This document shows positions 24,423 to 49,628 of a stretch of DNA of 56,195 nucleotides, piece after piece. The stretch covers positions 138,124 to 194,318 of the forward strand of contig NZ_JALBVB010000052.1 in assembly GCF_022669155.1 (NCBI RefSeq), read 5' to 3'. The stretch comes from Kineococcus sp. TRM81007 (lineage in GTDB: Bacteria > Actinomycetota > Actinomycetes > Actinomycetales > Kineococcaceae). A program made the translations under genes and the position numbers. The notes below the pieces were generated by a model. That model was given only the letters and a program-made list of their open reading frames with translations, made no database searches and was not told the DNA's origin. Numbering within the stretch: the stretch's first letter is position 1; the number at the start of each line of letters is the position of its first letter.

Positions 24423-24432
24423 ACGAACGACA

Positions 24433-24559
24433 CGCGTGCTCCGGGGTCGGTGGAAGTCCGAACCGGCGGTGACAGTCCGCGAGCCCCCACCTCGGTGACG
24501 GGCCGACCCGGTGGAACTCCGGGACCGACGGTGAGAGTCCGGACGGGAGGCAGCACGCG
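24433..24559 (+). ncRNA. FMN riboswitch (RFN element)
   Basis: The aptamer is closed by a perfect 8-bp P1 (cgcgtgct at 24433-24440 with agcacgcg at 24552-24559). Inside it are the conserved blocks of the RFN element: GGTCGGTGGAAGTCCGAACC, GGCGGTGACAGTCCGCGAGC, CCGGTGGAACTCCGGGACCG and ACGGTGAGAGTCCGGACGGG. It should sense FMN and repress the ribD-ribE-ribB-ribH operon. The expression platform lies in the next ~150 nt. There is a 7-bp hairpin at 24640-24657 but no T-run, so control of translation initiation or Rho-dependent termination is more likely than intrinsic termination. Confidence 0.97.
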
Positions 24560-24712
24560 GGTAGTGCGCTCGTGCCCGCGCGCGCCCGGTGGCTCCGCCG
24601 CCGCGCGCCGCGCCGGTGCGCCCGCACGACCCGGGTCGCTGGTGCGCTCGCGCACCACCGACGGCCTCCGCGTCCCCTCGGACCGCCCGACGGTGCGAGA
24701 GCGAGGAACGCG

Positions 24713-45711: not shown

Positions 45712-45749
45712 CTCCAGCCCGCCGCGCTCAGCAGCGCGGCGGGCTGGAG
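45712..45749. terminator. 17-bp bidirectional terminator, overlaps 3' end of FRG gene
   Basis: A perfect 17-bp stem (45712-45728 with 45733-45749) with loop cagc follows the gltD stop by 12 nt. The stop codon of the convergent FRG gene (45728-45730) lies at the top of the stem and loop, and the right arm encodes its last residues. Confidence 0.85.
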
Positions 45750-46537
45750 TAGTACCGCGTCAGCCACCGGCTCAACCCGTCCAGACCGGGGAAGAGCACC
45801 CGCTCGGTGATGTTGGCCTGGTCCAGGCGCTCACGCACCAGCGGCTTCAACGCCGCCGGCACCACCAGCTTGCGCACCGACGGCGTCTCGGCGCGCGTCA
45901 GCCACGCGTCCGGCCGCTCGTGCACCGAGGAGAGCACCGAGAAGCTGGCGTACTGGTTGACGATGCGCTCGTCCAGCGACGGCGGCTCGAAGAACGCCAT
46001 GAACGGCTCGGGGTCCAGGGCGTCGAAGCGCGCCAGGGTCGGCGCCACCTGACCCAGCAGCTCCACGGTGAACGCGGTGCCCCCCGACGCCTGCAGCGCC
46101 TCGCGCACCTTCCCGGGCAGCCGCTCGTGCGCGGCGACGAAGTCCGCGCTCCACACCGCCCCGTCCTCGTCGTGGCGCCGCACGTCCGCCGTGGCGAAGT
46201 GCAGCGCCACCAGTGGCGAGTACGTCCAGTCCAGGATGCGGGTGGGCAGCCCGTGGTGCTGCGCCAGCGTCAGCCACTCCCAGTCGCTCTCCTGGTGCCC
46301 GAACGGCACCCGCGAGTACTTGCGGAAGTTGCGCAGCAGGTCCGTCTCGCGCTCGACGCGTCCCAGCCGCTGCACCGACGTCAGCAGCCCGTACGCCGCG
46401 CACGGCAGGCCCCGGTGCACCACGTTGGAGTGGTACCGGCCCGCCCGCTGCGGCCACGGCTCGGCGAACAGCAGGTCCTGCAGCTGCGCCCACGTGCGCG
46501 GTGCCACCGTCTCCACCTCGGGGTGATCCACCCGCAC
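45728..46537 (-). CDS. FRG-domain protein
   Basis: The 269-residue protein matches the FRG family: VVHRGLPCAAYGLLTSVQRL near the N-terminus, and the hallmark LAQHHGLPTRILDWTYSPLVALHFA in the middle. LDERIVNQYASFSVLSSVHERP lies further on and resembles the C-terminal half of such proteins. Biochemical activity is not established for the family, although some members occur in mobile or defence contexts. The GTG at 46537 is preceded by GGGAGGGG. The longer Arg/Gly-rich upstream frame is rejected. The last residues (YYSSPPRC) are encoded by the arm of the gltD terminator hairpin. No toxin-antitoxin or phage genes flank it. Confidence 0.78.
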   Translation of the reverse strand: MRVDHPEVETVAPRTWAQLQDLLFAEPWPQRAGRYHSNVVHRGLPCAAYGLLTSVQRLGRVERETDLLRNFRKYSRVPFGHQESDWEWLTLAQHHGLPTRILDWTYSPLVALHFATADVRRHDEDGAVWSADFVAAHERLPGKVREALQASGGTAFTVELLGQVAPTLARFDALDPEPFMAFFEPPSLDERIVNQYASFSVLSSVHERPDAWLTRAETPSVRKLVVPAALKPLVRERLDQANITERVLFPGLDGLSRWLTRYYSSPPRC

Positions 46538-46614
46538 CGACCGACCCCTCCCGCCTCGACCCGTGCCTCGACCCGCCAGCCGCCCCCTGCCGGCCCTCCG
46601 GCGGGCCCCCGTGC

Positions 46615-46645
46615 GCCCGGCGGGCCGCGACCGGGCCCGCCGGGC
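46615..46645. terminator. 12-bp hairpin between hypothetical and FRG genes
   Basis: The stem 46615-46626 with 46634-46645 and a 7-nt loop lies just beyond the stop of the reverse-strand 135-residue gene and upstream of the FRG gene. It probably separates the two transcripts. Confidence 0.6.
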
Positions 46646-46650
46646 AGGGG

Positions 46651-47058
46651 TCACCAGCCGGCGACGGCCTCCCGGTCGTACACCCACACCGCCGAGTCGC
46701 TGATCACGGTGACGTCCGCGGCGTGCCCGGCCAGGCCGCGCTCGGCCGCGGCCTCCTCCACCTTCGCCAGCGCACGCTGCGCGGCGCTCTCGGCGTCCAG
46801 CCCGTCCCCGTCGACGCTGATGACCACGTCGTGCTCGGGCGCGTCCACCGACTCGATGCGCGGGTGCGCCGTGCGCAGCGCCGCCACCAGCTCCTGCAGC
46901 GCCCCCTGCGGCCAGTCGGCGTCCGCGTGCAGCCGCACGTAGACGGCGTACTCGTGCTCCAGGTCCGCCACGCCCTGCTCGATCAGCTCGTCGATCTCGC
47001 GGTCCACCGCGGTCCCCAGCACCACGTCGTCGCGACCCGCTCCCGTTCCCGTCGTCAT
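46651..47058 (-). CDS. hypothetical acidic protein, 135 aa
   Basis: I do not recognise a family. The protein is acidic, rich in Asp/Glu/Ala, without membrane helices or signal peptide. It has a plausible alpha/beta pattern (EHEYAVYVRLHADADWPQGALQELVAALRTAH, then HDVVISVDGDGLDAESAAQRALAKVEEAAAERG, then VTVISDSAVWVYDREAV), hinting at two ferredoxin-like strand-helix units. I chose the ATG at 47058. An ATG at 47070 would add four residues. It is divergent from pyk across 183 bp and has its own hairpin downstream. Confidence 0.55.
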   Translation of the reverse strand: MTTGTGAGRDDVVLGTAVDREIDELIEQGVADLEHEYAVYVRLHADADWPQGALQELVAALRTAHPRIESVDAPEHDVVISVDGDGLDAESAAQRALAKVEEAAAERGLAGHAADVTVISDSAVWVYDREAVAGW

Positions 47059-47241: not shown

Positions 47242-48681
47242 ATGCGCAGAGCGAAGATCGTCTGCACCCTCGGACCCGCAGTGGGCGGCCCCGAGCGGTT
47301 GCGGGCCCTGGTGGACGCCGGGATGGACGTCGCCCGGATGAACCTCAGCCACGGTTCCCACGACGAGCACCGGACCAACTTCGAGGGGGTGCGTGCCGCG
47401 GCCGAGGCCAGCGGCCGCGCGGTCGGCATCCTCGCCGACCTGCAGGGCCCCAAGATCCGCCTGGGCCGCTTCGCGGACGGCCCCCACGACCTCGCGGTCG
47501 GTGACGTCTTCACCATCACCACCGAGGACGTCGTGGGCACCCGCGAGGTGTGCTCCACCACCTACGCGGGTCTGCCCGGTGACGTCTCCGTCGGCGACAG
47601 CATCCTCATCGACGACGGCAAGGTCGGTCTGGAGGTCACCGCCGTGGACGGCCCCCGCGTGGTCACCCGCGTGACCGTGCCCGGCCCCGTCAGCAACAAC
47701 AAGGGCATCAACCTGCCCGGCGTCGCCGTCAGCGTGCCCGCCCTGTCCGAGAAGGACGTCGAGGACCTGCGCTTCGCCCTGTCGCTGGGCGTGGACATGG
47801 TCGCCCTGTCCTTCGTCCGCTCGGCCGCCGACGCCGACGACGTGCGGCGCGTCATGGACGAGGAGGGCGTGAACGTCCCCGTCATCGCCAAGGTGGAGAA
47901 GCCGCAGGCGGTGGAAAACCTGCGCGAGATCGTCGCCGCCTTCGACGGCATCATGGTCGCCCGCGGCGACCTGGGCGTGGAACTGCCCCTGGAGGAGGTT
48001 CCCCTCGTCCAGAAGCGAGCCATCGAACTGGCCCGCCGGCAGGCCAAGCCCGTCATCGTCGCCACCCAGATGCTCGACTCGATGATCACGAACCCGCGCC
48101 CGACGCGCGCGGAGGCCTCCGACTGCGCCAACGCCGTCCTCGACGGCGCGGACGCGCTGATGCTCTCGGGGGAGACCAGCGTGGGCGCCTTCCCCTTCGA
48201 GGCCGTGCGCACCATGGCCCGCATCATCGACAACACCGAGACCCACGGCCTGGAGCGCATCGCCCCGCTGGGCACCACGCCGCACACCAAGGGCGGCGCC
48301 ATCACCCTGGCCGCCGCCGAGATCGGCAGGCAGCTGGACGCCAAGCTGCTGGTGACCTTCACCCAGTCCGGCGACTCCGCCCGCCGCCTGTCCCGGCTGC
48401 GCTCGCAGATCCCGCTGCTGGCGTTCACCCCCGACCACGGCACGCGCCGTCGCCTGGGCCTGAGCTGGGGCATCGACGCCCACCACGCGCCGTTCATCAG
48501 CACCACCGACGAGATGGTCAAGGCCGTCGACGCCCGGCTGCAGGAGATGGGCCGCTGCTCCGAGGGCGACCTCGTCGTCATCGTGGCCGGTGCCCCCCCG
48601 GGGATCGTCGGCTCGACCAACGCGGTGCGGGTGCACCGCATCGGCGACGCCACGGAAGGGGTCTCCTCCGCCTACGCGTGA
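47242..48681 (+). CDS. pyk: pyruvate kinase
   Basis: The 479-residue glycolytic enzyme makes pyruvate and ATP from phosphoenolpyruvate. The A domain starts RRAKIVCTLGPA and has MNLSHGSHDEHR. The B domain spans about residues 70-165. The catalytic lysine is in VPVIAKVEKPQAVENL, and the metal/PEP region includes IMVARGDLGVELPLE, ATQMLDSMITNPRPTRAEASD and LMLSGETSVGAFP. The C-terminal regulatory domain follows. It is monocistronic, predicted leaderless, and ends at a 21-bp terminator. Confidence 0.97.
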   Translation: MRRAKIVCTLGPAVGGPERLRALVDAGMDVARMNLSHGSHDEHRTNFEGVRAAAEASGRAVGILADLQGPKIRLGRFADGPHDLAVGDVFTITTEDVVGTREVCSTTYAGLPGDVSVGDSILIDDGKVGLEVTAVDGPRVVTRVTVPGPVSNNKGINLPGVAVSVPALSEKDVEDLRFALSLGVDMVALSFVRSAADADDVRRVMDEEGVNVPVIAKVEKPQAVENLREIVAAFDGIMVARGDLGVELPLEEVPLVQKRAIELARRQAKPVIVATQMLDSMITNPRPTRAEASDCANAVLDGADALMLSGETSVGAFPFEAVRTMARIIDNTETHGLERIAPLGTTPHTKGGAITLAAAEIGRQLDAKLLVTFTQSGDSARRLSRLRSQIPLLAFTPDHGTRRRLGLSWGIDAHHAPFISTTDEMVKAVDARLQEMGRCSEGDLVVIVAGAPPGIVGSTNAVRVHRIGDATEGVSSAYA

Positions 48682-48727: not shown

Positions 48728-48773
48728 GCACGACGAGGGGGACGGACCGGTTGGTCCGTCCCCCTCGTCGTGC
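48728..48773. terminator. 21-bp perfect hairpin between pyk and tRNA gene
   Basis: The stem 48728-48748 with 48753-48773 is uninterrupted, with loop ggtt. It ends pyk on the plus strand and, 24 nt beyond the tRNA 3' end, can end the tRNA transcript on the minus strand. Confidence 0.9.
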
Positions 48774-48797
48774 TTGCGGTGCGCGTGCGTCGTGCGG

Positions 48798-48871
48798 TGC
48801 CCCGGGTGGGATTCGAACCCACACTGGATCGAGTTTGAGTCGATTGCCTCTGCCGGTTGGGCTACCGGGGC
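48798..48871 (-). tRNA. tRNA with anticodon CAA (Leu codon UUG), class I variable loop
   Basis: The reverse strand folds into a full 74-nt cloverleaf. The acceptor is GCCCCGG/CCGGGGC with discriminator A73. The D arm has a 3-bp GCC/GGC stem and G18-G19. The 5-bp anticodon stem is ATCGA/TCGAT with loop CTCAAAC, giving anticodon CAA. The variable loop is only CCAGT. The T arm is GTGGG/CCCAC with loop TTCGAAT. U8, A14, A15-U48, U33 and A58 are all conserved, so it looks functional. By anticodon it is tRNA-Leu, but bacterial tRNA-Leu normally has a long variable arm. CCA is not encoded (CCG follows A73). Confidence 0.85.
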
Positions 48872-48909: not shown

Positions 48910-48915
48910 ACCCTA
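48910..48915 (-). promoter_or_regulatory. candidate -10 box for the tRNA gene
   Basis: TAGGGT on the minus strand lies 38 nt upstream of the tRNA 5' end. The -35 is unclear. Confidence 0.4.
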
Positions 48916-49010: not shown

Positions 49011-49628
49011 GTGACGAACACTCCTGACACCGCCGCGACCGCACCCACGACCGCTCGCCGGGTGGTCGTCGCGGAGGACGAGGCGATCATCCGCCTCGAC
49101 ATCGTGGAGATGCTGCGGGAGGCCGGCTACGACGTCGTCGGCGAGGCCGGTGACGGCGAGCAGGCGGTCTCCCTCGCCGAGGAGCACAAGCCCGACCTGG
49201 TCGTCATGGACATCAAGATGCCCGTCCTGGACGGCATCTCCGCGGCCGAGCGCATCGTCAAGGCCCGCATCGCCCCCGTCGTGCTGCTGACCGCCTTCTC
49301 CCAGGCCGAGCTCGTCGAGCGCGCCCGCGACGCCGGCGCCATGGCGTACGTCGTCAAGCCGTTCACCTCCGCCGACCTGCTGCCCGCGGTGGAGATCGCC
49401 GTCAGCCGCCACCAGCAGATCATGGCGCTGGAGGACGAGGTCGCCGACCTCGCCGACCGCTTCGAGACCCGCAAGCTCGTGGACCGCGCCAAGTCGAAGC
49501 TGCAGACCCAGTTCGGCATGACGGAGCCGGAGGCCTTCCGGTGGATCCAGAAGACCTCGATGGACAAGCGACTGACCATGCGCGAGGTCGCCACCACCGT
49601 CATCAACGCCGGCGACGACCGCCCCTGA
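49011..49628 (+). CDS. pdtaR: ANTAR-domain response regulator (PdtaR type)
   Basis: The 205-residue protein has an N-terminal receiver domain (VVVAEDEAIIRLDIVEML, phosphoacceptor Asp67 in LVVMDIKMP, conserved Thr in VVLLTAF and Lys in YVVKPF). The C-terminal ANTAR RNA-binding domain (about residues 140-195: DLADRFETRKLVDRAKSKLQ, MTEPEAFRWIQKTSMDKRLTMREVA) follows. ANTAR regulators bind dual-hexaloop RNA structures to prevent termination. The partner histidine kinase (PdtaS) is not in the window. The position between pyk and polA is conserved in actinobacteria. Confidence 0.94.
   Translation: MTNTPDTAATAPTTARRVVVAEDEAIIRLDIVEMLREAGYDVVGEAGDGEQAVSLAEEHKPDLVVMDIKMPVLDGISAAERIVKARIAPVVLLTAFSQAELVERARDAGAMAYVVKPFTSADLLPAVEIAVSRHQQIMALEDEVADLADRFETRKLVDRAKSKLQTQFGMTEPEAFRWIQKTSMDKRLTMREVATTVINAGDDRP

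Follow-up and report, generated by a model that had tools for sequence, protein, structure and literature searches.

A Leucine tRNA with a Short Variable Loop Is the Probable Reader of UUG in Kineococcus and Belongs to a Widespread Actinobacterial Family

Kineococcus sp. TRM81007 carries a tRNA gene with the leucine anticodon CAA and a variable loop of class I size. It most probably encodes the UUG-reading tRNA-Leu of the cell, transcribed from a promoter of its own, charged by the single ordinary leucyl-tRNA synthetase (LeuRS), and belonging to a short-loop family of tRNAs for the UUR codons. We put the probability of this reading at about 0.93. The tRNA is no oddity of a single genome: most sampled genomes of the class, and many bacteriophages, carry members of the same family. 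The case is one of an ordinary job in an unexpected shape, and no new mechanism is required. The whole stretch of DNA analyzed, 56,195 nucleotides of contig NZ_JALBVB010000052.1, is referred to as the window.

Structure of the tRNA

The gene is located at 48798..48871 on the minus strand with its 5' end at 48871, and comprises 74 nucleotides including the discriminator A73. It was identified by ARAGORN, by Rfam and by covariation in relatives. ARAGORN called tRNA-Leu(CAA) at 48871..48796 (-), while the Rfam tRNA model RF00005 spanned 48871..48798 (-) with 58.3 bits, where the gathering score is 29. The acceptor stem has 7 bp, the anticodon stem 5 bp and the T stem 5 bp; the anticodon loop reads CUCAAAC and the variable loop consists of the five nucleotides CCAGT (CCAGU in the RNA). 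The D stem contains three pairs (GCC/GGC) with C13 opposite A22, which makes a D arm of the leucine type, and the D loop holds A14 A15 as well as G18 G19 C20 A20a. With U8, A9, A14, A15, G18, G19, U33, a TTCGAAT T loop and A73 all in place, the first-pass annotation was right to list the conserved cloverleaf positions (U8, A14, G18, G19, U33, TTCGAAT, A73) as complete. Its description of a structurally sound class I tRNA with a leucine CAA anticodon and a 5-nt variable loop is likewise borne out by ARAGORN, Rfam and the sequence. The CCA end is encoded incompletely.

The predicted fold contains the acceptor, anticodon and T arms, and 197 of 200 shuffled sequences folded worse, although the minimum-energy fold pairs the D region otherwise than the cloverleaf does. 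In allo-tRNAs, the designations 8/4 and 9/3 give the numbers of pairs in the acceptor and T stems. The focal tRNA, with 7 and 5 pairs, is therefore not an allo-tRNA of the 8/4 or 9/3 types named in the available text of PMC7609411. Nor is it class II, which by the definition given there requires a variable loop of at least 10 nt.

The tRNA Set, LeuRS and Codon Usage of the Genome

The Rfam tRNA family had 46 matches in the genome, and typing with ARAGORN gave 43 distinct tRNAs; two of the 46 matches were incomplete, one adjoining a run of N and the other at the end of a contig, and by eye resembled an initiator-like tRNA-Met and a tRNA-Glu. Leucine is served by one class II tRNA each with the anticodons GAG, CAG, UAG, and UAA, together with the class I CAA tRNA. 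The check for a separate class II tRNA-Leu(CAA), suggested at the outset, gave none among the 46 matches, and the class I copy is the sole CAA gene in that set.

A LeuRS profile search of the genome returned one open frame above the cut-off. The remaining matches scored at most 66.6 bits; the long frames in which they lie suggest other synthetases of the LeuRS class. Among 28 candidate genes of the window, picked by length and GC bias and not by annotation, UUG made up 18 of 11953 codons and UUA none, and the rarity of UUG noted earlier is thus real for these genes. The class I CAA gene is not necessarily essential, as the class II UAA tRNA could also read UUG.

A Family Widespread in Actinobacteria

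In a blastn survey with the focal tRNA, 38 of 39 genomes, own included, gave a match, in one of them over 28 nt only; the sole genome without a match had two by covariance model. The 30 loci returned, own included, comprised 21 with a CAA and 9 with a UAA anticodon, and every one had the short loop. Within the genus it recurred in all 11 genomes, again counting our own.

Covariation was assessed in 23 aligned relatives. Twelve of the 20 base pairs had changed on both sides, amounting to 54 cells, compared to a mean of 14.8 cells in shuffles, none of which (0/500) reached 54. The compensatory changes were found in all four arms.

A covariance model termed R1 was built from 23 aligned family sequences, the focal tRNA among them. 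The focal tRNA scored 105.3 bits, partly by construction, whereas no other tRNA of the genome exceeded 65. It fits the family in its C12 C13 A14 A15 D arm and in its short loop ending in U48. At E<=1e-11 the model matched 174 of 197 genomes of the class, own included, and at E<=1e-12 it matched 40 of 149 genomes of the phylum, own included, 30 of the 40 lying outside the class; these matches passed strict filters and were typed in part, and a few with borderline scores may be tRNAs of another kind. The first-pass annotation had named a gene both silent and not conserved as grounds for refutation; the 174 matches speak against a lack of conservation. Among the 23 genomes of the class without a match at E<=1e-11, some fall into families that lack the tRNA throughout the sample. 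No genome of family f31 (five sampled) or family f43 (four) matched R1, and both UUR tRNAs were class II in 3/5 and 4/4 of them, respectively. In family f37, 9 of the 15 genomes matched and the others did not.

After 60 further sequences had been fetched, ARAGORN assigned 119 of 120 loci to leucine (three of them UAG). The single exception, Phe(AAA), is by alignment a UAA type read in a shifted register. The 110 distinct class I sequences all carried U8, C12, C13, A14, A15, U48, and A73; G18 G19 was present in 108 (the other two were unparsed), A20a in 103 and C2-G71 in 104, while bases 23-25 were GGC in 74, GGA in 17 and other triplets in fewer. These sequences were gathered with the focal sequence, the family model or a derived pattern, which biases the counts toward conserved positions. 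A pattern that fixed loop length and U48 beforehand, so that neither counts as evidence, found at least 119 stretches of many named genera carrying the short loop. A short-armed tRNA-Leu(UAG), belonging to the CUN box, was also seen outside the class, in three family f76 genomes of the phylum (L156, L157, and L161).

We found no description of an actinobacterial short-armed tRNA-Leu family in the open-access literature searched, which mostly leaves out subscription papers; three papers have some bearing on it. Apparently undescribed in open papers are its generality in the class and in phages and the codon-by-codon replacement of the class II isoacceptor.

One Shape for Each Anticodon

Of the 197 class genomes, 86 yielded UUR tRNAs (106 in all) to an exact pattern for both shapes; the configuration counts are lower bounds, and "only" refers to what the strict pattern caught. 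Class I UAA only was found in 40 genomes, class I CAA only in 12, class I UAA with class II CAA in 8, class II for both in 8, class II CAA only in 7, class II UAA only in 7, class I for both in 2 and class I CAA with class II UAA in 2, the Kineococcus genome being one of the last. No genome of the 86 was found to have the same anticodon in both shapes. In this exact-pattern set bases 22-24 tracked the shape, being AGG in 66/66 class I and (A/C/G)CG in 40/40 class II tRNAs.

The CAA and UAA copies also differed in their surroundings. The first-pass annotation had proposed a search of other actinobacterial genomes for the gene next to pdtaR. Among 58 loci beside our own, a pdtaR-like gene lay within 700 bp of the tRNA, with the tRNA upstream on the opposite strand, in all 33 CAA loci, and was found within the locus stretch in none of the 25 UAA loci (23 places, as L065 = L093 and L071 = L099 were fetched twice). 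Since one set lies beside pdtaR and the other does not, copies with CAA and copies with UAA seem to form two distinct sets of orthologues. In the 119 named loci listed, which partly overlap with the 58 and include Cellulomonas, Cellulosimicrobium, Kineococcus, Nocardioides, Sphaerisporangium, and Nocardiopsis, a pdtaR-like gene was found within 700 bp in 98 (94 antisense, 4 sense), farther off in 12 and was absent from the stretch in 9. Taken on gene order, the tRNA-pdtaR locus appears to be old.

The Locus in Kineococcus

The tRNA gene is antisense to both its neighbours, a pyruvate kinase and a PdtaR-like regulator, and the placement between pyk and pdtaR given in the first-pass annotation is confirmed by the profile matches of the two genes. 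The convergent neighbour, at 47242..48681 (+), is the pyruvate kinase gene (TIGR01064, 547.1 bits; NF004886, 647.3 bits; both above cut-off). The divergent neighbour, at 49011..49628 (+) with a tentative start codon, encodes a response regulator with a receiver and an ANTAR domain (PF00072, PF03861). We take it to be PdtaR-like on account of this domain pair; none of the 25 NCBIfam models shown for the gene passed its own cut-off. A gene for an FRG-domain protein is located at 45728-46687 (-) between gltD and pyk.

A candidate -10 box, TAGGGT, is found at 48910..48915 on the minus strand, 38 nt before the 5' end of the tRNA, and is proposed from its conservation. Every one of the 12 loci inspected by eye in the genus and family, own included, had a TARGGT within the 75 nt preceding the tRNA. 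A generic sigma-70 promoter scan listed no promoter at the focal tRNA. Where the 3' ends of the pyk and tRNA genes face each other, the intervening DNA holds a perfect inverted repeat (48728..48773, assigned to neither strand) whose 21-bp arms enclose a loop of 4 nt and which lacks a T run. It may possibly act as a terminator working in both directions; a terminator scan listed nothing at the locus, this repeat included. GC-rich palindromes of the same kind were seen by eye downstream of the tRNA in most members of the genus. Elsewhere in the window an FMN riboswitch (24432-24560, 84.7 bits) precedes open frames that by their look resemble riboflavin genes.

Probable Charging by the Ordinary LeuRS

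A promoter of its own would drive transcription of the tRNA in the direction opposite to pyk and pdtaR, and the transcript would presumably be matured as other tRNAs are. The single LeuRS would then charge it through A73 and the corner formed by the D loop and T loop, comprising U8-A14, A15-U48, G18 G19, and A20a, and the CAA anticodon of the charged tRNA would decode UUG. In most of the sampled genomes of the class the family, as UAA or CAA, would serve one or both UUR codons in this way.

This scheme is in agreement with what is reported for LeuRS elsewhere. For E. coli tRNA-Leu the available part of PMC9976931 names A73, A15-U48, G18 G19, A20a, and the contacts between D loop and T loop as important, describes the long arm as not crucial, with arm-less variants keeping activity, and states that U8-A14 matters for the Aquifex tRNA-Leu and that a C2-G71 pair is a block against SerRS. 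The leucine identity positions A73, A15-U48, U8-A14, G18 G19, and A20a are all present in the focal tRNA. The premise from which the first-pass annotation set out, that a long arm defines the substrate of a bacterial LeuRS, does not hold against the dispensable arm in E. coli (PMC9976931, as far as available). A search of structures showed that solved structures of bacterial LeuRS exist.

The four class II tRNA-Leu of the genome (GAG, CAG, UAG, and UAA) share with the focal tRNA a leucine anticodon, a D arm of the leucine type and A14, A15-U48, A20a, and A73 (4/4), as well as C2-G71 in three of four (GAG has T2-A71). Presumably they also have the synthetase in common. They differ from it in their long variable arm, with a total of 84-86 nt compared to 76, and at positions 12 and 13, which are G12 and either G13 or T13 in these tRNAs but C12 and C13 in the class I family. 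Across the genome, A15-U48 together with A73 was found in 5/5 leucine tRNAs and also in four (Ala-UGC, Arg-ACG, and two Lys) of the 38 distinct tRNAs for other amino acids. The combination thus points to leucine but not exclusively; it supports the assignment and does not prove it.

Charging by a different synthetase, with LysRS and MetRS nearest by sequence or anticodon, would mean that UUG is wholly or partly not read as leucine. A comparison over 63 core positions took in the genome's 42 other distinct tRNAs as well as five class II tRNA-Leu of relatives or the genus; the focal tRNA was found equally near to tRNA-Lys(CUU) and to the class II Leu-CAA of a relative (44 each), followed by Arg(UCU) and class II Leu-UAA (43 each), and both Lys tRNAs have A15-U48 and A73 as well. 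The focal D arm, however, is of leucine length with A20a, unlike that of lysine. LysRS and MetRS read the anticodon, which here is CAA. Across the family the anticodon spells leucine in all the ARAGORN calls apart from the one explained by register. We consider it highly unlikely that a synthetase other than LeuRS charges the tRNA. Since the identity positions are kept, other synthetases, mis-decoding and a non-translational role would all be unnecessary assumptions.

If the leucine reading is right, the rule that bacterial tRNA-Leu is class II (PMC9976931 and PMC7609411, available parts) fails for at least one UUR isoacceptor in most of the class genomes sampled, and it also fails for many phages. 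The family offers a natural test of what LeuRS truly requires, and is a warning for software that types tRNAs by arm length. A tRNA sequencing study, in the part available, uses the rule that bacterial Ser, Leu, and Tyr tRNAs are type II (PMC6297222). Short-armed tRNA-Leu also have a bearing on the exchange of tRNAs between phages and hosts.

Phages and Integration

Mycobacteriophages integrate at attB-11, which overlaps the tRNA-Leu-CAA gene of M. smegmatis; phage Omega rebuilds the tRNA upon integration, while Gaia does not and carries a tRNA-Leu-CAA of its own (PMC10865867, available part). The related phages Optimus and LittleE have, next to their integrase genes, regions that are presumably attP and contain the 3' portion of a tRNA with the CAA anticodon, a 5-nt ACAGT loop and A73. 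As these phage regions show a class I tRNA, the M. smegmatis gene is very probably class I too, and very probably of value to its host. A Tsukamurella plasmid has a class I tRNA-Leu(CAA) (L433:501-577) right next to a site-specific integrase gene, as if the tRNA were a remnant of integration.

Integration of this kind bears on the possibility that the gene has no translational use, being a relic or an RNA with another task, for instance as a target for integration or in antisense action on pdtaR. The mycobacterial tRNA-Leu-CAA does serve as an integration site (PMC10865867, in part), and UUG is rare in the window. Against it stand the compensatory changes across all four arms, the conservation of the anticodon loop and identity positions, the replacement of the class II isoacceptor by the family in the typed genomes and the rebuilding or supply of the tRNA by integrating phages (same source). 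Such a role in place of translation is in our judgement very improbable. A misread structure, with a hidden long arm or an assembly error behind the short loop, had no supporting point, is refuted by the relatives, with the short loop in all 11 genomes of the genus and in the at least 119 named stretches (pattern of fixed loop length), and has a negligible chance of being correct.

Compared to the actinobacterial family, phage-borne short-armed tRNA-Leu share the architecture and differ in their many hosts, in being mostly UAA and in a few cases in having another D arm. Sixty-nine phage records matched the focal tRNA as query, and 136 and 183 records were returned with class I Leu tRNAs from two of these 69, a cyanophage and a Bacillus phage, the hosts of the latter two sets including Escherichia, Salmonella, Vibrio, Pseudomonas, Synechococcus, and Enterococcus. 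Megablast with one class I CAA tRNA as query found no phage record, while a distant search gave 348. The matches were typed in part, from 13 records fetched for the purpose. Each had at least one tRNA-Leu of 73-78 nt, two also had one of class II (84 and 86 nt), and five had two short-looped Leu tRNAs with different anticodons. A few phage tRNAs were short-looped with another D arm (Leu-CAA of L298 and Leu-UAG of L431). Hosts outside actinobacteria for phages with class I Leu tRNAs were those of E. coli O157 typing phage 8 and Vibrio, Rhizobium, Lactobacillus, Enterococcus, Pseudomonas, Acinetobacter, Synechococcus, and Bacillus.

In viral contigs at least 120 stretches matched the family pattern, and on 118 of those listed ARAGORN called 119 tRNAs (89 UAA, 24 CAA, 5 UAG, and 1 CAG). 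U8, C12, C13, A14, A15, and A73 were present in all 107 distinct sequences listed; since the anticodon (leucine-type), the loop length and U48 were fixed by the pattern, only other positions count as evidence. The phage matches show the architecture outside actinobacteria and do not show it in host chromosomes there. A blastn search of E. coli genomes with the focal tRNA, which is a weak test, gave nothing at E<=0.01.

Origin and Known Relatives

When 104 class I sequences were compared with other tRNAs, the class II Leu-CAA of a relative reached a mean identity of 0.685, and Asn, Lys, and Arg tRNAs about 0.67. Judged from such comparisons, an origin by loss of the long arm and an origin by recruitment of a class I tRNA are both possible. 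A tentative history, which we think less likely than not, is that the short-armed Leu tRNAs of actinobacteria and of phages from several phyla form one old lineage, spread by phages or early transfer, that in actinobacteria displaced the class II readers of UUA and UUG codon by codon and left a patchwork in which either, both or neither isoacceptor is short-armed.

Two further tRNAs resemble the family. The human mitochondrial tRNA-Leu(UUR) is likewise a UUR tRNA charged by LeuRS without a long arm (PMC9976931, in part); it differs in being an organelle RNA with a weak anticodon stem, and the likeness is one of form and not demonstrated kinship. The tRNA-Leu(TAG) of a mycobacterial tRNA cluster shares a leucine anticodon and the short variable loop, and differs in being an extra, clustered copy with another anticodon and a normal isoacceptor elsewhere (PMC6582537, available text). 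For Mycobacterium tuberculosis, tRNA-Leu-2, 3, and 5 are named as having a long variable loop in the available part of PMC11541572, from which we infer, on the paper and not on the genome, that its other leucine tRNAs are short-armed.
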